DNA of 64,000 nt from Desulfobacter vibrioformis DSM 8776 (lineage in GTDB: Bacteria; Desulfobacterota; Desulfobacteria; Desulfobacterales; Desulfobacteraceae). The notes below the pieces were generated by a model that saw only the letters and a list, made by a program, of their open reading frames with translations, did not search any database and was not told the DNA's origin. Below are positions 50,186-64,000 of this stretch, one piece after another. Every line of letters begins with the position of its first letter. Positions within the stretch are counted from its first letter, which is position 1. The position numbers and the translations under genes were made by a program. The stretch spans positions 62,001 through 126,000 of the forward strand of contig NZ_JQKJ01000009.1 of the NCBI RefSeq assembly GCF_000745975.1. Reading direction: 5' to 3'.

Positions 50186-52009
50186 GTGAAAGAGGGCCGA
50201 TATATCGTTGGAATAGATCTTGGGACAACAAATTGCGTGGTGGCCTACTCAGATATGCACGTTGAAAGAGCCCCCAGGCAAATGGCAAAAATAAACCTTT
50301 TCAGAGTGCCGCAACTCACAGGTCCCGGAGTGGTTGAATTAAGAGACGCTCTTCCCTCTTTTCTTTATGTCAAGGAAGGGCATGAAGACGCTTCGAACAC
50401 CTTGCTATTGCCATGGCAGGAAGAAGGGACAGTTACTGTTGCAGGTGAATTTGCCCGGGAGCGCGGTGCAGAAGTTCCCCATAAACTCATCTCTTCGGCC
50501 AAGTCATGGTTGTGCAATTCGGCGGTGGATCGGGAAACGCCCATTTTGCCTTGGGATACCGCAAAAGACATTGAAAAGTTGTCTCCGGTCCAGGCCTCAT
50601 GTGCGCTGCTCAGGCATATAAAAAATGCCTGGAACCATGAAATGGCGGCTGATGATCCGTCTCTTTGTCTTGAAAATCAAGCGATCTACCTGACAGTACC
50701 GGCATCGTTTGATGCGGTGGCCAGAGAACTGACGGTGAAGTCTGCGCAAATGGCCGGTTTAAAAGACATTGTCCTTATCGAAGAGCCGCAATCCGCCTTC
50801 TATGCCTGGATTGACAAAGCAGGTGATGACTGGAGAGATCAAGTGGAAAAAGGCGATCTTGTCCTGGTCTGTGATATCGGCGGCGGTACCAGCGATTTCA
50901 GTCTTATTGAGGTGAACGAGGGCGCGGATGGCCTTTTAAATCTTGAACGCGTGGCTGTGGGCAATCATCTTCTTGTTGGGGGAGATAATCTGGATTTAAC
51001 ACTCTCATACTTTCTTGCGGCAAAGCTTGGAGAAAAAAAACAGAAACTGGATGCCTGGCAGATGAGGGGGCTTGTTCACTCCTGCAGAAAAGCAAAAGAG
51101 GAATTGTTTTCATCCGAAGGCCCGGATGAATATCCTGTAACGGTTTTGGGACGAGGGTCCGGCCTGATTAAAGGAACGATCAAACTGAGTTTGAAACTGG
51201 CGGATGTACAGCAGGTCGTGCTGGATGGTTTTTTCCCGGCATGCAGCCTGGATGACAAACCTGCGGCAAGCAGTGCAACAGGCATGAAAGAGTTTGGTCT
51301 TTCCTATGAATCCGATCCTGCCATCACACGGCATTTGGCCCAGTTTATATCTTCTCATACAGATGCCCAAGGAAATCCACGACTGCCCACTGCCGTTGTA
51401 TTTAACGGTGGCGTCATGAAGTCCCCGTTGATCAGAGAAAGGCTTCTGGATGTACTAAAGCAGTGGCACAGTGCATCTGCGAGCGGAGAAATCCGGCAGA
51501 TCAATACGGTTGATTATGATCTTTCAGTGGCCTGGGGGGCCTCTTATTATGGCCAGGCGGCCCGGGGAGATGGAATCAAGATACGCGGTGGGCTGGGGAT
51601 GTCCTACTATATGGCGATTGAAGCTGCCATGCCCGCCATTCCAGGGCTTGCCATGCCCACCAGAGCCCTTTGTATTGCTCCCTTTGGCATGGAAGACGGC
51701 AGCCAGGCGGAAAGTAAGGATCGTCTGTTTAATCTGGTTGTGGGCGAGAAAGTCACTTTTGATATCATGAGTTCTCCAAACCGCCCTGATGACCAGTTGG
51801 GAGATGTGATAGATAATTGGGAGGATATAGGAATCACGGGGTTAACCTCTATTGAAACTGAGCTGGAAAGAACGGGAACGGATCAAGGATTTATACCCGT
51901 CACTTTTGAAGTCAAGGTGACCGAGATCGGCACGCTCGAATTTTGGGCCTGCTCACGGGATGATGATCGCAAATGGCGTTTGGAGCTGAATGTAAGGCCC
52001 AGGATCTAG
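50186..52009 (+). CDS. Hsp70-family protein lacking a canonical DnaK tail
   Basis: 607 residues. The ATPase domain has GIDLGTTNCVVAYSD (phosphate 1), VCDIGGGTSDFSL near 229 (phosphate 2) and VVFNGGVMKSPLI (adenosine). The following 180 residues are beta-rich and differ from DnaK; there is no lid helix or EEVD end. It lies 31 bases after DUF2760 and 19 bases before a paralogue. With the absence of dnaJ or grpE in the operon, it may be a dedicated rather than general chaperone; this is inference. Confidence 0.93.
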   Translation: MKEGRYIVGIDLGTTNCVVAYSDMHVERAPRQMAKINLFRVPQLTGPGVVELRDALPSFLYVKEGHEDASNTLLLPWQEEGTVTVAGEFARERGAEVPHKLISSAKSWLCNSAVDRETPILPWDTAKDIEKLSPVQASCALLRHIKNAWNHEMAADDPSLCLENQAIYLTVPASFDAVARELTVKSAQMAGLKDIVLIEEPQSAFYAWIDKAGDDWRDQVEKGDLVLVCDIGGGTSDFSLIEVNEGADGLLNLERVAVGNHLLVGGDNLDLTLSYFLAAKLGEKKQKLDAWQMRGLVHSCRKAKEELFSSEGPDEYPVTVLGRGSGLIKGTIKLSLKLADVQQVVLDGFFPACSLDDKPAASSATGMKEFGLSYESDPAITRHLAQFISSHTDAQGNPRLPTAVVFNGGVMKSPLIRERLLDVLKQWHSASASGEIRQINTVDYDLSVAWGASYYGQAARGDGIKIRGGLGMSYYMAIEAAMPAIPGLAMPTRALCIAPFGMEDGSQAESKDRLFNLVVGEKVTFDIMSSPNRPDDQLGDVIDNWEDIGITGLTSIETELERTGTDQGFIPVTFEVKVTEIGTLEFWACSRDDDRKWRLELNVRPRI

Positions 52010-52028
52010 TGGCGGGCAGGAGATTATT

Positions 52029-54875
52029 GTGGATTTTCAAGATAAACGATACGTTGTCGGGATTGATCTGGGGACTACCAATTCAGCGGTATCATATGCT
52101 GATCTGACTTGCCTGAACACCAAGGGAGACGGTGCCGGCATTGACAATGGAATAAAAGTCTTCAAGGTGCCTCAATTAACCGGGCCAGGCGAGTTTTCGC
52201 CTGTCTCCGTGCTGCCCTCTTTTTTATATATTCCGGGTGAGTATGATCTTTCCAAGGATGCTCTGAAGCATCCTTGGAAAAAGGAAAATGACCTGTTTGC
52301 CGGTGTGTTTGCAAGGGACCATGGTTCACAAATTCCATCCCGGCTGGTTTCATCTGCAAAAAGCTGGCTATGCCATTCCCGTGCTGACCGTGAAGCGCCG
52401 ATTCTGCCGTGGGGATCAGAGAATGTGGATAAGATTTCCCCGGTCAAAGCGACCAGTGAATATCTGAGACATATTCGAAAAGCGTGGAATCACTTTGTTA
52501 AAGATGAGGATTTGTTTCTTGAAAATCAATTTACAGTCATAACCGTTCCTGCATCTTTTGATGAAGCGGCTCGTGAATATACCCTGAAAGCCGCAAGAGA
52601 AGCTGGGTTTGGTAAAAATATAACGCTGCTGGAAGAGCCCCTTGCCGCGTTTTATGCCTGGGTGACACGCCATGAGCATGACTGGCAATCCCATGTCAAG
52701 ACCGATGATCTGATCCTTGTTTGCGATGTGGGCGGGGGAACAACCGACTTCACCTTGATATCTTTGAAAGAGGCCCATGGCAGTCCTCAGTTTGAGCGTG
52801 TAGCTGTTGGAGACCACCTCATTTTAGGCGGAGACAATATAGACCTTATGCTGGCGCGTTATGTCGCATCAAAATTTACCCAAAAAGCAAACCTGACCCC
52901 GGATCAATGGAAAACACTGAGTTATAAATGCCGTGCCGCAAAAGAAAAGCTTCTTCTGGACAGCGCTGAAAACGGTGATGACAATCGGGTTAGAATCGTA
53001 TTAAGAGGTGAAGGCCGCTCTCTTATCGCCAATACCTTGTCAGCGGATCTGGAAAAAAATGAGCTGGAAGATATCCTGTGCAACGGCTTTTTTCCAGAGG
53101 TTGAGCCCAGCCTTGCACATCCTAAAAAATCAGGCAAGGCAATGGCCGAATTTGGTCTCCCATATGAGCAGGAACCGGCAATAACCCGTCATATCGGATG
53201 GTTTTTAGAACGCCATCGTGAAAGTGTCAAAGCGATTCTGGGCAAAGAGCCCATACCTGATCATATTTTGTTTAATGGCGGTTCACTGAAACCCTCCGTG
53301 TTTCAAAACAAAATCAGGTCAGCTATTCGAAAATGGTTTTCCTGTGAGGACCAGGCCCTGCCGTCATTGCTGGACAATAGTGATCCGGATCTTTCCGTTG
53401 CCCTGGGGGCCTCTTACTATGGTCTTGTCAAACAAGGCATGGGGGTGCGTGTGGGCAGCGGCAGCCCCAGAAGTTATTATATCGGAATTGCTTCGGATAA
53501 TGTCCAGAATACCCATCGCTCTCAAAATGAAACCTGTGGCCCAACGTGTGAAAACGTACTGTGCGTGGTGGAGCGTGGTTTGGATGAGGGGTCATTGATC
53601 CAGCTCCCGGAGATGGAATTTGAGGTTGTGACCAACCAGCCGGTTCTTTTTTCAATGTTCAGCTCCAGTTTCAGATCCGGTGATAAGAGTGGTGATATTC
53701 TTCAGGTTGATGATTCCCTGACATCGCTGCCCCCCCTTAAAACCGTTATTAAATTTGGGAAAAAAGGAGAATCAAAACGGATTCCGGTTAAGGTGGAGGT
53801 GGAATATACCGAAATGGGAACCCTTGGGATGTGGTGCCGCTCAAGCGTGTCATCCCATCGTTGGAAACTTCAGTTTCAATTGCGCGAACCCCAGGCCGGA
53901 GAAGCCAACGAGAGTGAAGTCTATGATGATGATACTGTAAATAATGTCCGTAATCTGTTGACGGACGCCTTTTGCGGCTCTGCCGACAATGCCCGGTTGT
54001 CTTCCGTTGTAAAAAACATGGAAAAGCTGGTGGAGACAAAGAGGAATAAATGGCCTTTGTCCTTCCTTCGGGCCGTGGCAGATCATCTGCTTGAAAATGC
54101 CGGATGGCGGCACACTAGCCCGGAGCACGAAATTCGATGGTTGAACTTGACTGGATTTTGTATCAGGCCGGGCTTTGGTGATGCATTTGATGAGGCGCGT
54201 ATGCCCAAATTATGGAAAGTTTATTTACAAAAAAGCGTATTCCCTAAAGCCAAGCAAAATGCCCTTGAATGGTGGATCTTTTGCCGTCGAATTGCCGGGG
54301 GATTGACTGCCGGTCAACAGCGGCAGTTTTTTCAGGATATATCCGGCTATTTATTGGCAAACAGCGGGACCGGGAAAAAACTGCCTGTGCAGGAGATGAC
54401 CGAAATGTGGATGGCCGCAGCAAATATGGAGCGCCTGTTGATAAAAGACAAAATTGCTTTGTCAAAAAAGCTGATCCCCCAGTTGAAACCGGGCAAAACG
54501 CCGCATCAGATGTTTTGGGCCCTGTCCAGAATTGGCGCCAGAGAACTTCTTTATGGTTCTGTGGACAGGGTTGTTCCGGCAAAAGAGGTGGAAAGATGGA
54601 CAAAAAGATTGATGAAGATCAATTGGAATCCAAAGGATCCGATTTCCACTGCATTGGCCCAGATTCTCAGGAAAACAGGGGATCGAACCCGGGACGTTTC
54701 CCAGGATGTGATCCAAATAATGGTTCCGTGGTTTGAGCAGATGCAGGCGTCTCAAAAGTCATTGAATATGATTCAGACCGTCATTCCCATTGAATCAGCC
54801 GATGAAGCTTCCATTTATGGGGAAAGCCTTCCCCAGGGCCTTATACTCAGCAGTCGCCCAAGACTCGGTGATTAG
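52029..54875 (+). CDS. Hsp70-family protein with C-terminal DUF3731-like domain
   Basis: 948 residues. The N-terminal part parallels its upstream neighbour: GIDLGTTNSAVSYAD, VCDVGGGTTDFTLIS, LFNGGSLKPSVF. The last 310 residues (from about 640, after EANESEVYDDD) are a helical region with conserved Trp and Arg clusters such as PLSFLRAVADHLL and WWIFCRRIAGG; this C-terminus is recognised as DUF3731-like. The two Hsp70s probably arose by duplication. A GTG start follows AGGAG. Confidence 0.92.
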   Translation: MDFQDKRYVVGIDLGTTNSAVSYADLTCLNTKGDGAGIDNGIKVFKVPQLTGPGEFSPVSVLPSFLYIPGEYDLSKDALKHPWKKENDLFAGVFARDHGSQIPSRLVSSAKSWLCHSRADREAPILPWGSENVDKISPVKATSEYLRHIRKAWNHFVKDEDLFLENQFTVITVPASFDEAAREYTLKAAREAGFGKNITLLEEPLAAFYAWVTRHEHDWQSHVKTDDLILVCDVGGGTTDFTLISLKEAHGSPQFERVAVGDHLILGGDNIDLMLARYVASKFTQKANLTPDQWKTLSYKCRAAKEKLLLDSAENGDDNRVRIVLRGEGRSLIANTLSADLEKNELEDILCNGFFPEVEPSLAHPKKSGKAMAEFGLPYEQEPAITRHIGWFLERHRESVKAILGKEPIPDHILFNGGSLKPSVFQNKIRSAIRKWFSCEDQALPSLLDNSDPDLSVALGASYYGLVKQGMGVRVGSGSPRSYYIGIASDNVQNTHRSQNETCGPTCENVLCVVERGLDEGSLIQLPEMEFEVVTNQPVLFSMFSSSFRSGDKSGDILQVDDSLTSLPPLKTVIKFGKKGESKRIPVKVEVEYTEMGTLGMWCRSSVSSHRWKLQFQLREPQAGEANESEVYDDDTVNNVRNLLTDAFCGSADNARLSSVVKNMEKLVETKRNKWPLSFLRAVADHLLENAGWRHTSPEHEIRWLNLTGFCIRPGFGDAFDEARMPKLWKVYLQKSVFPKAKQNALEWWIFCRRIAGGLTAGQQRQFFQDISGYLLANSGTGKKLPVQEMTEMWMAAANMERLLIKDKIALSKKLIPQLKPGKTPHQMFWALSRIGARELLYGSVDRVVPAKEVERWTKRLMKINWNPKDPISTALAQILRKTGDRTRDVSQDVIQIMVPWFEQMQASQKSLNMIQTVIPIESADEASIYGESLPQGLILSSRPRLGD

Positions 54876-54976
54876 AAGGCCATTGAACATCAGCGGATTT
54901 TTGATTCAGTCCAATGATGCACCTGTCCCGTGCGCTGGCAGGGAAGGGAATGCCAGCCAGATATGAAGGAGTGTCC

Positions 54977-57900
54977 ATGTCAGATCCCGCCAAATTTCGT
55001 TTTTCCGTTGACCGCGGCGGCACCTTCACGGATGTCTATGCCGAGGTGCCAGGGAGACCCGGGTTCAGGGTTATCAAGCTTTTGTCCGAGGACCCCCGGA
55101 ACTATCCTGACGCGCCCCGGGAGGGAATCCGGCGCATCCTGGAAGAGGTGACTGGAAAACCTGTTTCCAAAGCGCTGTTCGACGAAGGCCAGATTGAGTG
55201 GATTCGCATGGGGACCACCCTGGCCACCAACGCCCTGCTGGAACGGAAAGGCGCGCCCAGCGCCCTGGTGGTGACCCGGGGATTCCGTGATATTCTTCAA
55301 ATCGGGAACCAGGACCGTCCCCATATTTTTGACCTGGAGATCAAAAAGCCCGAGATTTTGTACCGGGAGGTCATTGAAGCGGACGAGCGCCTGAGAATCC
55401 TTCGGGCGGATGAGGACGCCCCGGCAGGGAGAGCAAGGATCGTGAAGGGGATTAACGGTGACCGCCTGGCAGTGATCCGCCCCCTGGATACAGAGGCCAT
55501 AAGATCCGATCTTAAGGCCGTCTATGACCGGGGCATCCGCAGCCTTGCCGTCGTGCTCATGCACGCCTATGCCTGGCCGGATCATGAACTGGCCATCGGC
55601 CGCCTGGCCCGGGAGATGGGGTTCACCCAGGTCTCCCTCTCCTCCCGGGTCATGCCCCGGGTGAAGCTGGTGGCCAGGGGCGATACCACCATGGTGGACG
55701 CCTACCTCAACCCGCATATTCGCACCTACCTTGACAGCTTTAAATGCGGGTTCAAGGACAAACTTGTCCATACAGGCCTTCTTTTCATGCAGTCCGATGG
55801 CGGCCTGGCCGGTGCCGACGGTTTCACCGGCAGCCGGGCCATCCTGTCCGGGCCTGCCGGCGGGGTGGTGGGATATGCCATGACCACCTTTGATTCTGAA
55901 AAAAAACAGCCTGTCATCGGATTCGACATGGGGGGCACATCCACGGATGTCTCCCGGTTCGGCGGGGAATACGAACTGGTCTTTGAAACCCAGACCGCGG
56001 GGGTGCGCATCCAGGCCCCCCAGCTTCACATCAGGACCGTGGCCGCCGGCGGGGGTAGCCGCCTTTTCTTTGACAACGGCATGTTCCTGGTGGGGCCGGA
56101 ATCTGCCGGGGCCCACCCGGGGCCGGTCTGCTACCGGAAAGACGGATACCTGACGGTCACGGACGCCAATCTGGTGCTTGGCCGCATTCAACCCAGGCAC
56201 TTTCCCCATATTTTCGGGTCCACCGGGGACCAGCCCCTGGACGTGGAAGCAGCCCGGCAGGCCCTGGCCGCCCTGACCGAGGAAATCAACGCTTACGGCG
56301 CCGCTGGCGGGCAGCCGCCCATGACAGTGGAGGAGGCTGCCCTGGGCTTCATCCGGGTGGCCAACGAGGTGATGGTCAGGCCCATCCGTGAGATTTCGGT
56401 GATGCGGGGATTTGATATCAAGGAACACGTGCTGGCCACATTCGGGGGGGCCGGCCCCCAGCATGCCTGCGCTGTTGCCCGGGCCCTGGGGATATCCAAC
56501 ATTTTTATCCACCGGTTTTCCGGCATTTTGTCCGCCTACGGCATGGGACTGGCCGATGTGGTCACCGAGCGGCAGCAGCCCTTTGCCGCCGTTTTATGCC
56601 TCCGGGCCTTGAAAGAGGCTGAAACGGTTTTCCAGCGGCTGGAAAACGAGGCCCGCCAAGAACTGCAGGATCAGGGATTCTCCCCAAAGGCCGTTGACGC
56701 CACCCGGTTTCTTAACCTGCGGTACCACGGGACAGATACGGCCATCATGATCCCCGGGCCTGAAGACAATGACTATGCCAAGGCTTTCAGGGCCGTCTAC
56801 AGCAGGGAGTTCGGGTTCGATCTGCCGGGGAGGGAAATCCTCATCGACGATATCCGGATCCGGGCCCGGGGCAGGATTGCGGGTTTGCACCAGGCCAGCA
56901 TCCCAAAGGCCCAGGGGGCGCCGCCGGTGGTGGACACGGCCCAGTGCTGTTTTGAAGACGGATGGCAGAAAACCCCGATCTATGATCTGGAAAAACTTTT
57001 CGCCGGCCACTGCATTGCCGGCCCGGCCATTCTGATCCACCAGACCTCCACCATCCTTATCGAACCGAACTGCACTGCGGCCATTACCCGGAACGGCGAT
57101 GTGGAGATCAGGGTGGGATCGGGTACGCGGGCGCAAATCGGCACTAAAATGGACCCGGTCCAGCTCTCCATTTTCAGCAATCTTTTCATGTCCATTGCCG
57201 AACAGATGGGCCGGATGCTCCAAAAGACCGCCATCTCCACCAATATCAAGGAACGCCTTGATTTTTCCTGCGCTCTGTTTGGACCCAATGGCGAATTGGT
57301 GGCCAACGCGCCCCATCTGCCGGTTCATCTGGGGAGCATGAGCGACGCGGTAAAGGCGCAGATCCGAATCCAGGGAAGCGGTCTTATGCCCGGGGATGTG
57401 CTGGTCTCCAACCATCCGGCTGCAGGGGGCAGCCATCTGCCCGACATTACGGTCATCACCCCCGTGTTCAAGGACGGCCAGGTGATTTTCTGGGTGGGAT
57501 CCAGAGGCCACCACGCTGACATCGGCGGCATCTCTCCGGGGTCCATGCCCCCGAACTCCCGCACCCTTGAAGAGGAAGGGGCCTGCATTACTTCGTTCAA
57601 GCTGGTGGAGGACGGTATTTTTCAGGAAAAGGGCATTTCAGAACTGCTGCTTGCGCCGGGCAAGTTGACCCCGGCACCGGGGCGCCCGGCCATCTCCGGC
57701 ACCCGGCTTCTGGCAGACAACATCTCCGATCTAAAGGCCCAGATTGCCGCCAACCGGAAGGGGATCGAACTGGTGCTGGAGATGGTGGATCACTACGGCC
57801 TTGATGTGGTCCAGGCCTATATGAAGCATGTCCAGGATGCGGCTGAAGAGGCGGTGCGCCGACGGCTCCGGGCGCTTTCCGCATCCAAGGGGATGGCTGA

Positions 57901-58753
57901 ACGGGATACGATCCGCGCCAGGGATTATCTGGATGACGGCAGCCCCATTGCCCTGTCCCTGACCATCGACCGGAAGGACGGCAGCGCTCTGTTTGATTTT
58001 CAAGGCACCGGATCCCAAATTTGGGGAAACTGCAATGCCCCCAAGGCTGTCACCAAGTCGGCCATCCTCTACTGCCTGCGGTGCCTGATTGAAAAAGATC
58101 TGCCCCTGAACCACGGCTGCCTTATTCCCATCACCGTGAATATCCCCAAGGGCTCCCTGCTTGATCCCTCTGCCGGGGCCGCGGTGGTGGGCGGCAACGT
58201 GCTGACCTCCCAGCGAATCACCGACGTGGTCCTCAAGGCGTTCGGCGTGGCCGCCGCCTCCCAGGGCTGCATGAACAACTTTACCTTTGGCAATGACCGG
58301 TTTGGTTACTATGAAACCATTGCCGGCGGGGCCGGGGCCGGTCCTAGCTGGCACGGCCAGACCGGGGTCCATACCCACATGACCAACACCCGCATCACTG
58401 ATCCGGAGATCCTGGAGCGGCGATATCCTCTGATTCTCAGGGAGTTTTCCATTCGCCGGGGGTCCGGCGGCAGGGGCCGGTTCAACGGTGGGGACGGTTT
58501 AGTGCGTGAGGTGGAATTTTTAGAGCCCCTCAATGTAGCCATCCTTTCCGAACGCCGGGTTTTTGCCCCCTACGGGCTTGAAGGCGGTGAACCCGGAAAA
58601 AAAGGGGTCAACCTTTTCATCAGAAAAGACGGTGCCTCAATCTGTATGGGCGCCAAGAACGAAATCCTGGCTCAACCCGGCGAGCGTTTCCGTATCATGA
58701 CCCCCGGCGGAGGGGGATTTGGCACTCCAACAGCCAATAAAGATAGGAATTAG
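54977..58753 (+). CDS. ATP-dependent 5-oxoprolinase/hydantoinase (fused HyuA-HyuB)
   Basis: 1258 residues. Residues 1-680 are the HyuA half: FSVDRGGTFTDVYAEV, GTTLATNALLERKGAP, and VIGFDMGGTSTDVSRF for ATP binding. Residues 700-1255 are the HyuB half: DFSCALFGPNGELVANAPHLPVHLGSM, SRGHHADIGGISPGSMP and the Gly-rich end GGGGFGTP. The fused enzyme opens a lactam ring with ATP; 5-oxoproline or a hydantoin is the likely substrate, but relatives such as acetophenone or acetone carboxylase subunits exist. AAGGAG supports the ATG at 54977. It is much more GC-rich than its neighbours. There are no transporter or glutathione genes next to it. Confidence 0.9.
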   Translation: MSDPAKFRFSVDRGGTFTDVYAEVPGRPGFRVIKLLSEDPRNYPDAPREGIRRILEEVTGKPVSKALFDEGQIEWIRMGTTLATNALLERKGAPSALVVTRGFRDILQIGNQDRPHIFDLEIKKPEILYREVIEADERLRILRADEDAPAGRARIVKGINGDRLAVIRPLDTEAIRSDLKAVYDRGIRSLAVVLMHAYAWPDHELAIGRLAREMGFTQVSLSSRVMPRVKLVARGDTTMVDAYLNPHIRTYLDSFKCGFKDKLVHTGLLFMQSDGGLAGADGFTGSRAILSGPAGGVVGYAMTTFDSEKKQPVIGFDMGGTSTDVSRFGGEYELVFETQTAGVRIQAPQLHIRTVAAGGGSRLFFDNGMFLVGPESAGAHPGPVCYRKDGYLTVTDANLVLGRIQPRHFPHIFGSTGDQPLDVEAARQALAALTEEINAYGAAGGQPPMTVEEAALGFIRVANEVMVRPIREISVMRGFDIKEHVLATFGGAGPQHACAVARALGISNIFIHRFSGILSAYGMGLADVVTERQQPFAAVLCLRALKEAETVFQRLENEARQELQDQGFSPKAVDATRFLNLRYHGTDTAIMIPGPEDNDYAKAFRAVYSREFGFDLPGREILIDDIRIRARGRIAGLHQASIPKAQGAPPVVDTAQCCFEDGWQKTPIYDLEKLFAGHCIAGPAILIHQTSTILIEPNCTAAITRNGDVEIRVGSGTRAQIGTKMDPVQLSIFSNLFMSIAEQMGRMLQKTAISTNIKERLDFSCALFGPNGELVANAPHLPVHLGSMSDAVKAQIRIQGSGLMPGDVLVSNHPAAGGSHLPDITVITPVFKDGQVIFWVGSRGHHADIGGISPGSMPPNSRTLEEEGACITSFKLVEDGIFQEKGISELLLAPGKLTPAPGRPAISGTRLLADNISDLKAQIAANRKGIELVLEMVDHYGLDVVQAYMKHVQDAAEEAVRRRLRALSASKGMAERDTIRARDYLDDGSPIALSLTIDRKDGSALFDFQGTGSQIWGNCNAPKAVTKSAILYCLRCLIEKDLPLNHGCLIPITVNIPKGSLLDPSAGAAVVGGNVLTSQRITDVVLKAFGVAAASQGCMNNFTFGNDRFGYYETIAGGAGAGPSWHGQTGVHTHMTNTRITDPEILERRYPLILREFSIRRGSGGRGRFNGGDGLVREVEFLEPLNVAILSERRVFAPYGLEGGEPGKKGVNLFIRKDGASICMGAKNEILAQPGERFRIMTPGGGGFGTPTANKDRN

Positions 58754-59142
58754 GGCCTTGGAACGTTGTCTCCAATGAATAGTCAATAGTCAGATTTGCA
58801 TGATACAGACCGTTCAATGTTATAAACTTAAGTATTGAGTATTGGGTTACCTAAGGGTAATTACTCGGTATTTTACCGAATTTGACTCCTGACAGATAAT
58901 ACCATTATTGCGGGGTTTGTATTTACTATATTTCATTGGTTTTATACAACTGTATTGGAATCCTTTTACGCATTTTAAAATACTGATAGCGGGTATGAAA
59001 GAGTTTCAGTTTTCATGATATGTGGTGAGATAGCCGGACCCGTTCAGGCACATGTTAATTTTTTATTAATTAAAATTGACATATGTTAATCTATATATTA
59101 GATAGTATGAACAAAAGTTAACTTTTTATCTATTGCCTTAAT
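58754..59142 (+). promoter_or_regulatory. Gene-free AT-rich leader of the repressor/defence operon
   Basis: About 390 bases with no gene. TTGACA at 59076-59081 is a likely -35; TAGATA at 59099-59104 is a weak -10. ATGTTAAT occurs twice (59052-59059 and 59083-59090), and AAAAGTTAACTTTT at 59113-59126 is a perfect palindrome just before the repressor gene. TCGGTA-TTT-TACCGA forms a hairpin upstream. Confidence 0.55.
59113..59126. promoter_or_regulatory. Perfect 14-bp palindrome, possible operator
   Basis: AAAAGTTAACTTTT is fully self-complementary and lies 17 bases before the S24 repressor ATG, where a self-repressing operator would be expected. Related GTTAA-type half-sites lie further upstream. 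Confidence 0.5.
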
Positions 59143-59796
59143 ATGAATAACATTAGTTTCCATTCTTTTTATCAAAGATTAATCAATGAAGGTATTATTA
59201 CGTCTCAAAAAGAATTAGCTTCATTGTTGGATGTCAAAGGTTCTGCAATATCCCAGGCAAAGAGACGAAAAGTAATCCCACAAGCATGGGTATCAAAAAT
59301 TTCCGAAAAAATGAATTTAAGCCCCAAATGGATTAAAACAGGCAACGGGGATAAATATTTTGATAAGATTTGCGATGACAATCATACTTTTGAGATCGTC
59401 CCAAAAGTGAAGGCTCGCTTATCTGCGGGAGACGGATCTTTCGATGTCGATCAAAAAATTTCCGAATACTATTCATTTCAAAAAATTTGGTTAAGAAAAA
59501 AAGGGAATCCCAAAGATATGGTTTTAATGGATATCTCTGGCAATAGTATGGAACCTGAGTTGAAAGATGGAGATACAGTTCTTGTTGACAGATCTAAAAA
59601 TGAAATATTGGCGGGAGCAATATATGCAGTTGGTGTTGAGGATACTGTTTTAATAAAAAGGGTTGAAAAGCTTCCGGACAAGCTTGTTTTAATAAGTGAT
59701 AATGAAAAGTATTCCCCAATATACATAACAGGAGATGATATCAACCGTGTAAGAGTTTTAGGGAAAGTCATATGGATTTGTCGAGAAATCAATTAA
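59143..59796 (+). CDS. CI-type repressor with S24 self-cleaving peptidase domain
   Basis: 217 residues. The N-terminal 65 residues are a CI-type helix-turn-helix (SQKELASLLDVKGSAISQAK). The C-terminal S24 fold has the likely cleavage site Ala95-Gly96 (LSAGDGSF), catalytic Ser135 in GNSMEP and Lys172 in VLIKRVEK. Phage CI and LexA relatives bind operators and cleave themselves when RecA is activated by DNA damage. No phage genes are near. It is the first gene of the AT-rich island and probably represses itself and the two genes behind it. Confidence 0.92.
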   Translation: MNNISFHSFYQRLINEGIITSQKELASLLDVKGSAISQAKRRKVIPQAWVSKISEKMNLSPKWIKTGNGDKYFDKICDDNHTFEIVPKVKARLSAGDGSFDVDQKISEYYSFQKIWLRKKGNPKDMVLMDISGNSMEPELKDGDTVLVDRSKNEILAGAIYAVGVEDTVLIKRVEKLPDKLVLISDNEKYSPIYITGDDINRVRVLGKVIWICREIN

Positions 59797-59898
59797 ATAA
59801 TGATTATCAAAAACAATTTAAATCTAACGCTGTTTTTTGAAAAAACAATAATATGAAAATTTTAAAAGTCATATTCGGAATAATACATAGATAGCCCT

Positions 59899-62800
59899 AT
59901 GAAAGAATTAAAAAAAATATTCTCTCGTTTAGGGATGAATCAAGAAAACGGTTTATTCATATCATCAGAACTCAGGCAAGAAAGAGTATTGTCACATAGG
60001 GTTGAAAAACTTTTTGAGAGTAGATTAAAGCCAGCCGCTTTTTTTTGCATTGATAATAAACCAACTGTGCTTTTTTATAATTCTCCCCCAAATAGGAGTG
60101 ATTTATTCAAAGCCATATGGAACTTCAATGAATCTCCTGTCGTTATTATAAACGAACCAGATAGGATTGAAATCCTCAATGGGCTTTCTTTCCTTGACAA
60201 GGAAAATACACTTGAGAAATTAGCCGAGGAATCTAACCTTGACGCGTTTTCATATTTTGAGATTGTGACTGGAAGGGTATGGCAGAAATTCGGAGATAGA
60301 TTCAAGTATAATAATAGAGTTGATTACAAGCTGCTTGAGAATATTAAAGCTGCGAGAGATCTTCTTATTAGCCAAGAAAATATCAATGATTATTTGGCAA
60401 ACGCTCTACTTGGAAAATGCTTGTTTATCAGATACTTAATTGATCGAAAAGTTAGAATAAAATTTGATGATAAAATTCTGAGAGCCTGGAGCAATGATGA
60501 GTTTTGTCAGCTTTTAGAAGACAAAACCAAAACAATTAAATTTCTAAATTATTTAAAAGCACATTTTAATGGGGAAGCCTTTCTAATAGAGGATGCGCTA
60601 CTATATGACATCCCCGATAGCGCTTTTGAAATTTTAAAAAAATTATTGTTGGGAACAGAGATAACAAGCAACCAAATGTCATTGTTTGATATCTATGATT
60701 TCTCAATTATTCCTGTTGAATTTATAAGCAACGTATACGAATACTTTATTGGAAGAAAGCAACAAGCTAAAAAGGGTGCCTATTACACTCCTCTTTTTTT
60801 AGTTGACTATATTATTTCTAAAACCGTTACAAAGTATCTTAAAGACAATCCTGATAGCTATAAATGTAAGATATTAGATCCAGCCTGCGGGTCTGGTATT
60901 TTTCTTGTTGAATCATTGAGAAAAATGATAGAGCACTATCAAGAAACAAACAATAAGACTTCACATAGTAGTCGTAACTTTAAAGAAGTATTAAAAAAGA
61001 TCACCGAAGAAACAATTTTTGGTATAGACCAAGATAAAAATGCAATTAATGTTGCTATTTTTTCGGTTTATCTTACGTTGCTTGATTATCAAGAACCAAA
61101 AGAAATAGAAAATTTCAGATTTCCGAAATTAATAGAAAAGAATTTTTTCATTAAAGATTTTTTTAATGAAAATGATATATTTAACAATGCGTTTCAAAAA
61201 ATTGATTTTGACTTCATTCTTGGTAATCCACCCTGGAAGAGAGGCAGTGATAAAAACGCTCTTTTCTTAAAGTATATTAATAGAAGACGAACACTTGAAT
61301 CCAAAATATCAAACACGGTAATTCCGTCAATCAGCAACAAAGAAATAGCTCAAGCCTTTTTGCTCAGAACAAGCGATTTCAGCTCTAAAAATACGAAATG
61401 TGCCTTAATTGTAACCAGCAAGACATTATATAATCTCAAAGCAGACGGGTTTAGAGAATATTTTTTGAAAAATTATTTTCTTTCGAAAGTTTTTGATTTG
61501 TCTCCGGTTCGAAAGGAAGTGTTTGACAAATCAAATGACCCTGCGGTTGCACCTGCAGTTATTCTTTTCTTTAATTATGCACATGGACAATCAACTGATA
61601 AAAATATAATTAATCATATAGCTTTGAAACCCAATCGTTTCTTTTCGCTTTTTAAAATTTTTGTTCTGCAAAAGAATGACATAAAACAGGTTTTGCAATC
61701 TCGTTTAATTGAAAATGATTGGTTATGGAAGATATTGCTTTATGGTAGTTATCTTGATTTCCATTTAATCAAAAGACTTAAAACTCAGTACGAAAGCATA
61801 CATAAATCAATACAAAGAAAAAAATATTTATGTCTCACGGGGATTCAGTACGGCCAAGACAAAAGAAACTCAAAGCACTTGATTGGATTGCCAATTATTA
61901 GTGTAAATCGAGTGAAACCTTTTTTTATTGAACCACATTCTAAAGAAATTTTCTCTAAATCTTATATACACAGGCCGCGTAATAAAGAGCTTTTCGAAGG
62001 TGAAAGGCTCATTATTAAAAAAGGACTTAACCCATATTTTAAATCAACCTCTGCCATAATAAGAGAGAAAGCTATTTTCAAAGATTCACTGACAGCGATA
62101 AAAATCTTTGAGCACTCCAATATTAAGGACTTAAAAACATTTTGTGGTCTTCTCCAATCAGCAATGTTTTCCTATTTTATTCTTATGACCGGCTCATCAA
62201 CAGGAGTTGAAAGAGAACAAGGATTCAATGAAGAAAAATTCGATTTTCCATACACGAACAATCCATTAGTGTCAGAATATGTAAGCAAAATTGAAGAATT
62301 ATGTGATCAACTTGTAAATAATAAGAATAAGTTATTAGATACTGAGGTGCTATCAATAGAAAGAAAAAAAAACAAACTGTTGGAAAAATTAGACGAGGAA
62401 ATTTTTAGAAGTTTCGATTTAAATGAACAGGAATTAGCATTAATTGATTACGCTATCAAAATAACCATTCCTCTAATTATGAAACATAAGAAGTTTGAAA
62501 AAAACACTTTAAGTCCTTTGTTGGTAGAAGATCCATTTCTAAAAGATTACTCTCAGGTTTATTTTAATCGTTTTAAAAAATCATTTGAAAAACACAATAA
62601 AAAATTTGTGCTCCAAATACTTTACAATGAATATTTAGTAGGAATGTTTTTTAAAGTTATTGATGCCAAAGATTTCATAAGGCAAGTTATTTGGAAGCAA
62701 GCGTCAGAAAATAGCATAATTTCAAAACTTCACTCTCTTGGTTGCCAAAAACTTACAAAAAATCTTTTTCTTCAGAAAGATATAAGAGGCTTTGAAAAAA

Positions 62801-62904
62801 ACGGATTTTATATTGTAAAGCCGAATGAAAAAAAATTATGGCATAAAGCTATAGCTCACCTTGATGTTACTGAATTCGCTGATGCAATGTTGAAAAAGGA
62901 CTAA
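59899..62904 (+). CDS. Eco57I-like N6-adenine DNA methyltransferase (type IIG/Pgl-X-like)
   Basis: 1001 residues. AKKGAYYTPLFLVDYI near 290, DPACGSGIFLVES near 327 (SAM binding) and GNPPW near 443 (NPPY-type catalytic motif) are in the order of amino-methyltransferases. The N-terminal 290 residues resemble the Eco57I leader (AIWNFNESPVVII); no PD-(D/E)XK site is clear there. The C-terminal 450 residues likely hold target recognition. The gene is very AT-rich. It is followed 12 bases later by the putative nuclease gene, suggesting modification and cutting by separate proteins. Confidence 0.9.
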   Translation: MKELKKIFSRLGMNQENGLFISSELRQERVLSHRVEKLFESRLKPAAFFCIDNKPTVLFYNSPPNRSDLFKAIWNFNESPVVIINEPDRIEILNGLSFLDKENTLEKLAEESNLDAFSYFEIVTGRVWQKFGDRFKYNNRVDYKLLENIKAARDLLISQENINDYLANALLGKCLFIRYLIDRKVRIKFDDKILRAWSNDEFCQLLEDKTKTIKFLNYLKAHFNGEAFLIEDALLYDIPDSAFEILKKLLLGTEITSNQMSLFDIYDFSIIPVEFISNVYEYFIGRKQQAKKGAYYTPLFLVDYIISKTVTKYLKDNPDSYKCKILDPACGSGIFLVESLRKMIEHYQETNNKTSHSSRNFKEVLKKITEETIFGIDQDKNAINVAIFSVYLTLLDYQEPKEIENFRFPKLIEKNFFIKDFFNENDIFNNAFQKIDFDFILGNPPWKRGSDKNALFLKYINRRRTLESKISNTVIPSISNKEIAQAFLLRTSDFSSKNTKCALIVTSKTLYNLKADGFREYFLKNYFLSKVFDLSPVRKEVFDKSNDPAVAPAVILFFNYAHGQSTDKNIINHIALKPNRFFSLFKIFVLQKNDIKQVLQSRLIENDWLWKILLYGSYLDFHLIKRLKTQYESIHKSIQRKKYLCLTGIQYGQDKRNSKHLIGLPIISVNRVKPFFIEPHSKEIFSKSYIHRPRNKELFEGERLIIKKGLNPYFKSTSAIIREKAIFKDSLTAIKIFEHSNIKDLKTFCGLLQSAMFSYFILMTGSSTGVEREQGFNEEKFDFPYTNNPLVSEYVSKIEELCDQLVNNKNKLLDTEVLSIERKKNKLLEKLDEEIFRSFDLNEQELALIDYAIKITIPLIMKHKKFEKNTLSPLLVEDPFLKDYSQVYFNRFKKSFEKHNKKFVLQILYNEYLVGMFFKVIDAKDFIRQVIWKQASENSIISKLHSLGCQKLTKNLFLQKDIRGFEKNGFYIVKPNEKKLWHKAIAHLDVTEFADAMLKKD

Positions 62905-62916
62905 TATAGTAAAAAA

Positions 62917-63582
62917 ATGAACCAACCGCTTGATGCTTCAGTTTTTATAGAATCGGCTAATTTTAAATTAGCTGAATTTCAAGACATTCTTTCTAAGATA
63001 GTTGAGTGCTATAAATTAATGATGTCTGATGGGATACTGGTGAATAATGACGAAAACGAAATCAGAGATGTTTTGCATAGAGATTATTTAAATAACAACA
63101 GCATTAGAAATAGTTTAGGATTAACGGATTATCTCTTTGACCCTGAAGTTCCAGAGGCAAATACTCAAGGAAGGACGGATATAAAAATACAGACACCTGA
63201 TACATTTTTGGACACATTTGCATATTACATAATTGAATGCAAAAGATTGGATAATGGAAATCCAAGTGGTAGAACAGGCCTTAATGCGAAATATATTAAA
63301 AATGGGATCATGCGATTTGTTGAAGGAAAATATTCAACATACTGCAAGCTGAATGGTATGATTGGATTTATTGTTGAGACTATGGATATAAATAAAAATA
63401 TCCAGCATATCAATTGGTTACTTGATTCTAAATACTTCCAAACAAACACTTTAGAAAAATTAAGTTCTCAACTATTTATTCAAGATTTTAAATACCAGTA
63501 CTGTTCAGTTCACAAGGATTTAAAAAATAACAAATTTAGCCTGTATCATCTGATGCTGGATTTTTCAAAAAACTTGATATGA
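62917..63582 (+). CDS. Putative PD-(D/E)XK nuclease
   Basis: 221 residues, no named family recognised. QGRTDIKI with D88 and AYYIIECKRLD with E107-C-K109 match the core D...ExK of this nuclease fold, and charged residues follow. The first 80 residues are helical, perhaps for DNA or partner binding. It is likely the cutting partner of the methyltransferase, since the two are nearly adjacent and share AT-rich composition. This is inferred from motif and position. Confidence 0.7.
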   Translation: MNQPLDASVFIESANFKLAEFQDILSKIVECYKLMMSDGILVNNDENEIRDVLHRDYLNNNSIRNSLGLTDYLFDPEVPEANTQGRTDIKIQTPDTFLDTFAYYIIECKRLDNGNPSGRTGLNAKYIKNGIMRFVEGKYSTYCKLNGMIGFIVETMDINKNIQHINWLLDSKYFQTNTLEKLSSQLFIQDFKYQYCSVHKDLKNNKFSLYHLMLDFSKNLI

Positions 63583-63618
63583 TAATCACTTCCCAGTTAA
63601 ACAGTAATCGGAACATCC

Positions 63619-63678
63619 GGACTTTGTCTATCATGTGTCGCCGATAGGCTTGCTAGTAAAGTCCGTCACTTCTTTTTT
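63619..63678 (+). terminator. Probable terminator after the nuclease gene
   Basis: GGACTTT at 63619-63625 pairs with AAAGTCC at 63658-63664, with an inner CTATC/GATAG stem. A T-rich run follows near 63670-63678. Confidence 0.5.
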
Positions 63679-63707
63679 CAGTGCTCAGGTCACTCTCAAT
63701 TGAGTAC

Positions 63708-63779
63708 GAACGTTACAGGCCTTGATCCGCTTTATGACGGAACATTAAGAAAGAGACCAAGACCTGTGTTGAAACGTTC
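63708..63779. repeat. Imperfect inverted repeat at the island's downstream edge
   Basis: GAACGTTACAGGCCTTG at 63708-63724 mirrors CAAGACCTGTGTTGAAACGTTC at 63758-63779, with an extra five bases in the right arm. It lies between the nuclease gene and the cytochrome stop; it may be a hairpin or a remnant of an insertion boundary. Confidence 0.45.
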
Positions 63780-63784
63780 CGGAT

Positions 63785-64000
63785 TTACGGCGTGCTACCG
63801 TATCCCATGGGCAGCTGCTTGAACCGGCCGCCATATATAATGGGATCTCCTTCATACCCCAAGGCTTTAAAGTTAATGTAATCGGTTTTGTTGATTAAAT
63901 GCTCAACATCCCGGCCTCTGGATTTCATATAGGAAAAATCGGTACCCTTGTGGGCGATTTTTTTGAAATCCACATTGCGGTTGTCCTGGTGACACCGGTT
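63785..64000 (-). CDS. C-type cytochrome, C-terminal fragment
   Basis: The frame runs to the window edge, so the N-terminus is missing. The first readable residues are NRCHQDNRNVDFKKIAHKG; the CH preceded by two residues fits the end of a CxxCH heme site whose first Cys lies just outside. The tail of about 70 residues has another His (IAHKG) and charged stretches but no further heme motif. Multiheme cytochromes with this ending are common in Desulfobacterota. The number of hemes is unknown. Confidence 0.65.
   Translation of the reverse strand, partial: NRCHQDNRNVDFKKIAHKGTDFSYMKSRGRDVEHLINKTDYINFKALGYEGDPIIYGGRFKQLPMGYGSTP

Follow-up and report, generated by a model that had tools for sequence, protein, structure and literature searches.

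The locus described here raises the question of what a repressor of the self-cleaving LexA/CI type does at the head of an operon for DNA methylation and, apparently, DNA cleavage. The operon lies near the right end of the window, a stretch of 64,000 nucleotides from Desulfobacter vibrioformis DSM 8776 (contig NZ_JQKJ01000009.1, positions 62,001 to 126,000), and comprises three co-directional genes, for an S24-family repressor (S24), a DNA methyltransferase (MT) and a small nuclease-like protein (NUC), separated by 102 base pairs (bp) and 12 bp, respectively (table 1). The answer that we favour with moderate confidence, from sequence comparison, is that MT and NUC are a two-protein Type II-like restriction-modification system, horizontally acquired and placed under a RecA-responsive, self-repressing S24 switch.

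The original prediction had described three same-strand, AT-rich genes, namely a CI/LexA S24 repressor of the self-cleaving type with a palindrome before it, an Eco57I-like methyltransferase with an NPPW motif, and a nuclease with residues D88, E107 and K109. This anatomy was confirmed: the genes lie as described, the palindrome is perfect over 14 bp, and the G+C content is 31.1% in 59041-63678 compared with 48.6% in 1-58753, where the lowest value among 109 sliding windows of equal length was 40.3%.

Table 1. Features of the operon in window coordinates, and loci at which MT is followed by an intact NUC (L numbers denote loci).
Feature	Position	Strand	Remarks
Candidate operator/promoter region	59053-59089	+	half-sites TGTTAA 59053-59058, TTGACA 59076-59081, TGTTAA 59084-59089
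Perfect 14-bp palindrome AAAAGTTAACTTTT	59113-59126		S24 leader, ahead of the repressor gene
S24 repressor gene	59143-59796	+	217 amino acids
Repressor cleavage pair A95-G96; dyad Ser135, Lys172	within 59143-59796	+	
Inverted repeat TGTTTTTT-G-AAAAAACA	59831-59847		gap between S24 and MT; direct sequence reading
MT gene	59899-62904	+	1001 amino acids; gamma-class N6-adenine DNA methyltransferase
MT N-terminal 270 amino acids (nuclease position in Type IIG enzymes)	59899-60708	+	no nuclease family, no conserved (D/E)xK
MT S-adenosylmethionine motif DPACGSG	60877-60897	+	
MT catalytic motif NPPW	61225-61236	+	
Hypervariable MT region, about residues 621-830	61759-62388	+	taken as target-recognition region
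NUC gene	62917-63582	+	221 amino acids; small PD-(D/E)XK-like protein
NUC D88; E107; K109	63178-63180; 63235-63237; 63241-63243	+	
MT loci with intact NUC			window; L015-L018, L020-L022, L024, L025; L027, L029-L032; L126, L127; L130-L134, L136, L137; L036, L037, L039, L040

MT matched the N6_Mtase and Eco57I families (E about 1e-16), and a profile search of the PDB with this protein returned methyltransferases. The gamma-class motif residues D327, C330, G331, S332, N443 and P445 were kept in all 26 MTs compared (the tree set of 33 minus seven partial or broken MTs), and W446 in 22 of them. MT was also matched over its full length, at 923 bits, by PDLC03603, a PADLOC model labelled 'Type IIG', a type in which cleavage and gamma-class methylation reside in one chain (PMC4081073). 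The fused nuclease that defines this type was looked for and not found, and membership of MT in Type IIG was therefore rejected. No nuclease family was matched in Pfam by the first 270 amino acids (aa) of seven MTs, and in the first 200 aa of the 26 MTs there was no conserved (D/E)xK, no Glu or Lys reaching 80%. D142 and D182 were each kept in 21 of the 26 within this part, which may hold a very degenerate nuclease domain. The AlphaFold model of MT was poor (pLDDT, the predicted local distance difference test, 45.5), the alignment behind it holding few sequences. For an MT that lacks a fused nuclease, NUC would be the obvious supplier of the cutting function.

NUC of the window had no match above the cut-off in Pfam, PADLOC or NCBIfam, and the D...(D/E)xK active site typical of PD-(D/E)XK nucleases was recognised by conservation. 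E46, E107 and K109 were invariant in 28 of 28 NUC proteins and D88 was kept in 26, the motif not being independent in L027 and L040, two members that BLAST did not match to the window NUC and that were included for their position, size and motif. In the two exceptions at D88 (L029 and L127) a D sits two residues before the column, and the loss may be a matter of alignment. The residues named in the original prediction thus withstood the conservation check. A weak match to PDDEXK_9 (PF08011; best E 0.0011) was given by six of the 28 members, the window NUC not among them. The predicted order of elements near the motif, a-b-b(D)-b(E)-a-b, fits the alpha-beta-beta-beta-alpha-beta fold, in an AlphaFold model of low confidence (pLDDT 49.7). 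Both AlphaFold models are probably poor because few sequences, only 10 and 8, entered the alignments behind them. One NUC member touched a Cas5-like PADLOC model (E 0.003), which was taken as chance.

The pairing of the two enzymes was examined at 38 MT loci, made up of the window, 12 genome contigs, seven loci from 395 genomes of the same phylum, three further copies, ten loci from 382 genomes of a second phylum and five of 36 plasmid records; two weak matches in genome G419, the other 31 plasmid records and genome G079 stand outside this count. MT was immediately followed by an intact NUC-like gene in 28 of the 38, an arrangement of adjacent methyltransferase and endonuclease-like genes as in Type II systems, which have separate restriction and modification proteins. 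As for the remaining ten loci, four (L019, L023, L026 and L129) stop at a contig edge and in three (L028, also near a contig edge, L033 and L125) NUC is broken; the last three, where no NUC was found, are L135, L128, whose MT is split, and L038, whose MT is truncated. The MT and NUC open reading frames often overlap by a few bases (e.g. L015, L016 and L018), resembling translationally coupled genes. Judged by these loci, the conserved unit is MT plus NUC and not an obligate three-gene system.

Broken copies of NUC or MT were seen in several relatives (L028:93-443, L125:2910-3275, L033, L020 and L021), as if the system were often lost or inactivated. A NUC-like piece also occurs at a contig end in G079 (L034:5700-6038), with no MT in view, and was kept out of the pairing tally.

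Four of the 12 genome-contig loci (L016, L017, L018 and L022) carry a gene of 618-648 aa with a DNA methylase domain (PF01555) just upstream of MT-NUC. A domain scan identified a Type III Res-like gene (ResIII) after the pair in L016, L018 and L022, the L018 copy being truncated where its contig stops; L017 has no more than 160 aa of a similar Res-like start, a likeness noted outside the domain scan. Inserted cargo comprises a DUF1828 protein in L016, and a YhcG-type nuclease and a Bro-N protein in L018. By gene order and domains, MT-NUC is nested in a Type III-like (mod/res) operon in these four relatives (e.g. L016:1786-10800).

With respect to target choice, pairwise identities among six MTs (15 pairs) were 27-57% in residues 621-830, compared with 59-77% in residues 1-600. 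In the pair L015/L021, identity was 78% for NUC (57-90% per 30-aa window) and 83% for MT residues 1-600, and fell to 37% in MT residues 621-705, a comparison limited by the break of the L021 MT downstream of this segment. This suggests that NUC may borrow its target site from MT.

The repressor contains a Peptidase_S24 domain (PF00717, E=2e-24) and a CI helix-turn-helix (HTH) domain (PF07022, E=2e-6), and its nearest solved relatives in a PDB search were LexA and UmuD. Its A95-G96 pair and its Ser135 and Lys172 are taken here to correspond to the LexA cleavage site and catalytic dyad. The A-G pair and the Ser/Lys dyad were kept in all eight repressors aligned, including two stand-alone relatives (L071 and L072). 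All these features place the protein among the LexA/CI S24 repressors. Controller (C) proteins of restriction-modification systems are small HTH proteins without a protease domain; at 217 aa and with an S24 peptidase, the repressor is not one of them.

In the host assembly (4.47 Mb, 95.4% complete), a PF00717 search found no S24 protein besides that of the operon, and the S24 gene of the operon is the only one in genome G370 too. No match to LexA_DNA_bind was found in the host assembly; the family matched in 14 of the 21 genomes of the relatives set, the host being among the 21, and also in four archaeal controls, and is not specific to LexA. The absence of LexA from the host may be real, or the gene may lie in the missing 5% of the assembly. 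RecA is present. Its gene follows the preceding one at 18 bp, in an apparent operon, and no operator-like site was seen by eye in the 475 bp upstream of recA.

An S24-family gene immediately upstream of MT, co-directional and first in the operon, was found at six of the 38 loci (five of eight MT loci in the phylum of the host): the window, L020 (S24 85% identical), L027 and L028 (52-53%), and L031 and L032, in which the repressor has the LexA DNA-binding domain PF01726. On a maximum-likelihood tree of 33 MTs, in which L020 was placed by a piece of 659 aa, these six fall in three separate places (window with L020, L027 with L028, and L031 with L032). Two kinds of repressor, CI-like and LexA-like, thus stand ahead of MT. 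Since the six genomes checked have only one to three S24 genes each, an S24 gene beside MT by chance is unlikely, although the relatedness of the loci does not allow a probability to be given. The original prediction, a restriction-modification or phage-defence module under putative DNA-damage control, was supported in part. A module of restriction-modification type behind a self-cleavable S24 repressor has good support from the anatomy, the co-occurrence of MT and NUC and the three branches, with all three genes together in L020, L027 and, with a LexA-type repressor, in L031/L032; S24 itself is not an obligate part of it and is a recurrent add-on at a minority of loci.

The possibility that the S24 gene is a relic of a prophage or mobile element, upstream by accident and without control over MT-NUC, was considered in this light and is regarded as highly improbable. 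S24 relatives without MT (L071-L073) would fit such a relic, as would the variable spot to the right of the locus, where three of four relatives have integrase or transposase genes. Against it, three MT branches show this arrangement and two kinds of repressor take part in it, and between the window and L027/L028 the repressors are 52-53% identical where the MTs are merely 25-27% identical. Furthermore, neither MT nor NUC was matched by any of 50,697 phage records or in two scans of viral contigs, searches in which S24 itself was not included; a phage origin of MT and NUC was rejected on this basis.

Somewhat unlikely, in our estimate, is an ordinary Type II-like system in which S24 provides only dose or establishment control in the manner of a C protein, with a burst of MT on entry followed by self-repression, and in which cleavage by RecA is irrelevant. 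The repressor gene comes first and MT precedes NUC, as such control would have it, and the S24 superfamily reportedly includes an exception to RecA control, IrvR (PMC7101444). At other loci the gene before MT is of a different HTH type (annotated as MerR in L039; judged by eye, XRE-like in L132 and HTH-like in L130), suggesting that a regulator is wanted and is not always a cleavable one; at further loci nothing recognisable precedes MT, and in at least L030 the contig starts inside MT, leaving the upstream gene out of view. However, the conservation of the cleavage pair and dyad throughout the aligned repressors, and the separate recruitment of a LexA-type repressor in L031/L032, are not what mere dose control would favour.

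Candidate operators were sought in the repressor promoter. Upstream of five S24 orthologues (150 bp each), 15 TTRACA/TGTYAA half-sites were counted compared with 2.4 expected, and none of 1000 dinucleotide shuffles reached 15. As an operator signal this enrichment is only suggestive, because the motif was picked by eye from the same sequences, the orthologues L072 and L073 were outside the test, and the TTGACA half-site of the window also resembles a -35 box. In the upstream stretch of L072 no such half-site was seen by eye. The 14-bp palindrome of the S24 leader was absent from the top-ranked inverted repeats in L020, L027 and L028, and the inverted repeat between S24 and MT may be another control site or may have arisen by chance in DNA so rich in A+T. 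The LexA-type operons L031 and L032, which belong to different families, have in common a 14-base string spanning the start codon (one of 1000 simple shuffles gave a string that long); in L031 the string is part of a palindrome, ACTATACAAATGTATAGT, one arm of which is mismatched in L032.

Across the host genome, the pattern TGTTAA N4-10 TTRACA gave 15 matches, two sites being counted on both strands, compared with three for a reversed control. This pattern misses the promoter in the window itself, where two half-sites are 17 bp apart, and the matches were not accepted as a regulon, TTGACA doubling as a -35 box. A consensus promoter scan of 58700-64000 gave 17 promoter-like sites compared with 24.1 in shuffles; the count being lower than in shuffles, the scan is uninformative on the S24 promoter.

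The reading favoured here, that of a RecA-responsive S24 switch, would work as follows. MT would methylate adenine at a site picked by its C-terminal recognition region, and NUC would provide the cutting active site apparently absent from MT, probably by forming a complex with it or by acting at the same sites. The CI/LexA-type repressor would bind the half-sites in its own promoter and limit the entire operon to a low level that the cell can tolerate. Single-stranded DNA coated by RecA, arising from phage infection, incoming DNA or damage, would lead to self-cleavage of the repressor at A95-G96 and to release of the operon. In the version that we prefer, leaky basal expression would keep the genome methylated and damage would give a boost.

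Several points weigh against this reading. The NUC model is of low confidence (pLDDT 49.7) and gave no meaningful fold match: a Foldseek search with it gave 222 matches at E up to 10 and none at E <= 0.001, and profile searches of the PDB gave no credible match. Moreover, in the pair L016/L022, NUC residues 46-105 are 35% identical compared with 77-84% elsewhere, and the recognition region has diverged as well, a sign that NUC could contact DNA or MT through this patch and may carry some specificity of its own; as regards NUC as the sole source of specificity, L015/L021 speak against it and L016/L022 partly for it. Most MT-NUC loci have no S24, so that S24 control lies outside the core system, and the close repressor relatives without MT in L071, L072 and L073 indicate that repressor and enzymes can separate in evolution. 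Finally, if repression extends to the protective MT as well as to NUC, there would be danger in inducing the operon while the DNA is unmethylated.

This last point is the starting point of another explanation, a damage-triggered suicide module, in which repression of MT leaves the genome unmethylated and RecA activation frees NUC to cut it, resulting in abortive infection. S24 would indeed repress MT and NUC jointly, a separate MT promoter not having been demonstrated. We nevertheless consider it improbable, since MT lies ahead of NUC and would be made first, and since MT-NUC is common without S24, where steady expression must be tolerated.

The operon appears to have been acquired. The right-flank neighbour gene (680 aa) has homologues of 93-99% identity in four genomes of the same genus, and the contents beside it (63785-64000; L153-L156) differ among the four: G802 has two integrase genes there and G803 a DDE transposase, G399 has an IS110-type transposase at a greater distance, and several genes are common to G806 and G399. 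The operon was not found in any of the four stretches (13.5-13.7 kb each) around the homologue. The variability of this spot suggests that the operon was probably acquired. The original prediction was generous in speaking of a defence-like island: when ten neighbouring genes, four on the left and six on the right, were scanned with PADLOC, no clear defence gene was found, only generic overlaps with HSP70-like and AAA-activator models.

The left neighbour of the operon (54914-58753) encodes hydantoinase A and B/oxoprolinase as a single chain; its G+C content is 61%, compared with about 48% in its own left neighbours, and this gene was perhaps likewise acquired. Further left (50186-54875) lies an adjacent pair of HSP70-like genes (PF00012), the second with DUF3731, both of which are weak matches to PADLOC PDC-M61B. 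Homologues of the right-flank gene in L143-L145 and L148-L151 contain a single in-frame TGA, which may encode selenocysteine or be a true interruption of the gene.

Compared with known systems, the operon consists of known parts in a new combination. With Type IIG enzymes (PDLC03603; Eco57I/MmeI-like) MT shares the gamma-class adenine methyltransferase, its own C-terminal variable region and the full-length PADLOC match, but no nuclease domain was detected in its chain and the nuclease-like protein is the product of a separate gene. The Type IIH system AhdI ('Type 1 1/2') likewise has a gamma-class MT and a separate Type II-like nuclease; unlike the present system, in which recognition seems to lie within MT, AhdI has a separate S subunit (PMC4081073).

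As regards control, Type II systems under C proteins (PMC3874152) also have a self-acting HTH regulator gene in the operon, whereas the regulator here carries an S24 domain. RptR of Type I systems is, like S24, a dedicated transcriptional repressor of a restriction operon; it is, however, a small helical protein with short TAGCTA sites, and S24, peptidase and LexA are unmentioned in the available part of the source (PMC12255303). Three controllers of immune operons that sense damage have been described, CapW/BrxR, CapH+CapP and CapK+CapS, the third family in a 2026 paper (PMC13373217). They too head a defence-type operon and release it on DNA damage, as would be expected here, but by other means: a repressor binding single-stranded DNA, a protease with a separate repressor, and a kinase with a repressor, respectively; in the accessible text none of the three is described as a self-cleaving LexA/CI protein (PMC13373217). 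For restriction-modification, the regulation covered in the parts available comprises C proteins and proteolytic alleviation, with no S24 control found (PMC3874152, PMC12707154), and a literature search whose coverage left out most subscription journals found no restriction system controlled by S24 or LexA.

We tentatively suggest, as a possibility still short of probable, that self-cleaving LexA/CI repressors form a fourth class of damage controllers of immune operons and have been taken up by one restriction-modification family on at least three occasions, and that in hosts lacking LexA the repressor would be the only switch read by RecA, the response to damage being restriction and not repair.

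The timing of restriction-modification systems during infection is poorly known. If the operon works as proposed, restriction would be tied directly to RecA in a host in which no LexA was found, and the inducibility of restriction by DNA damage would become testable. The widespread MT-NUC pair, at present labelled Type IIG despite its separate nuclease-like gene, would need re-filing in defence catalogues.

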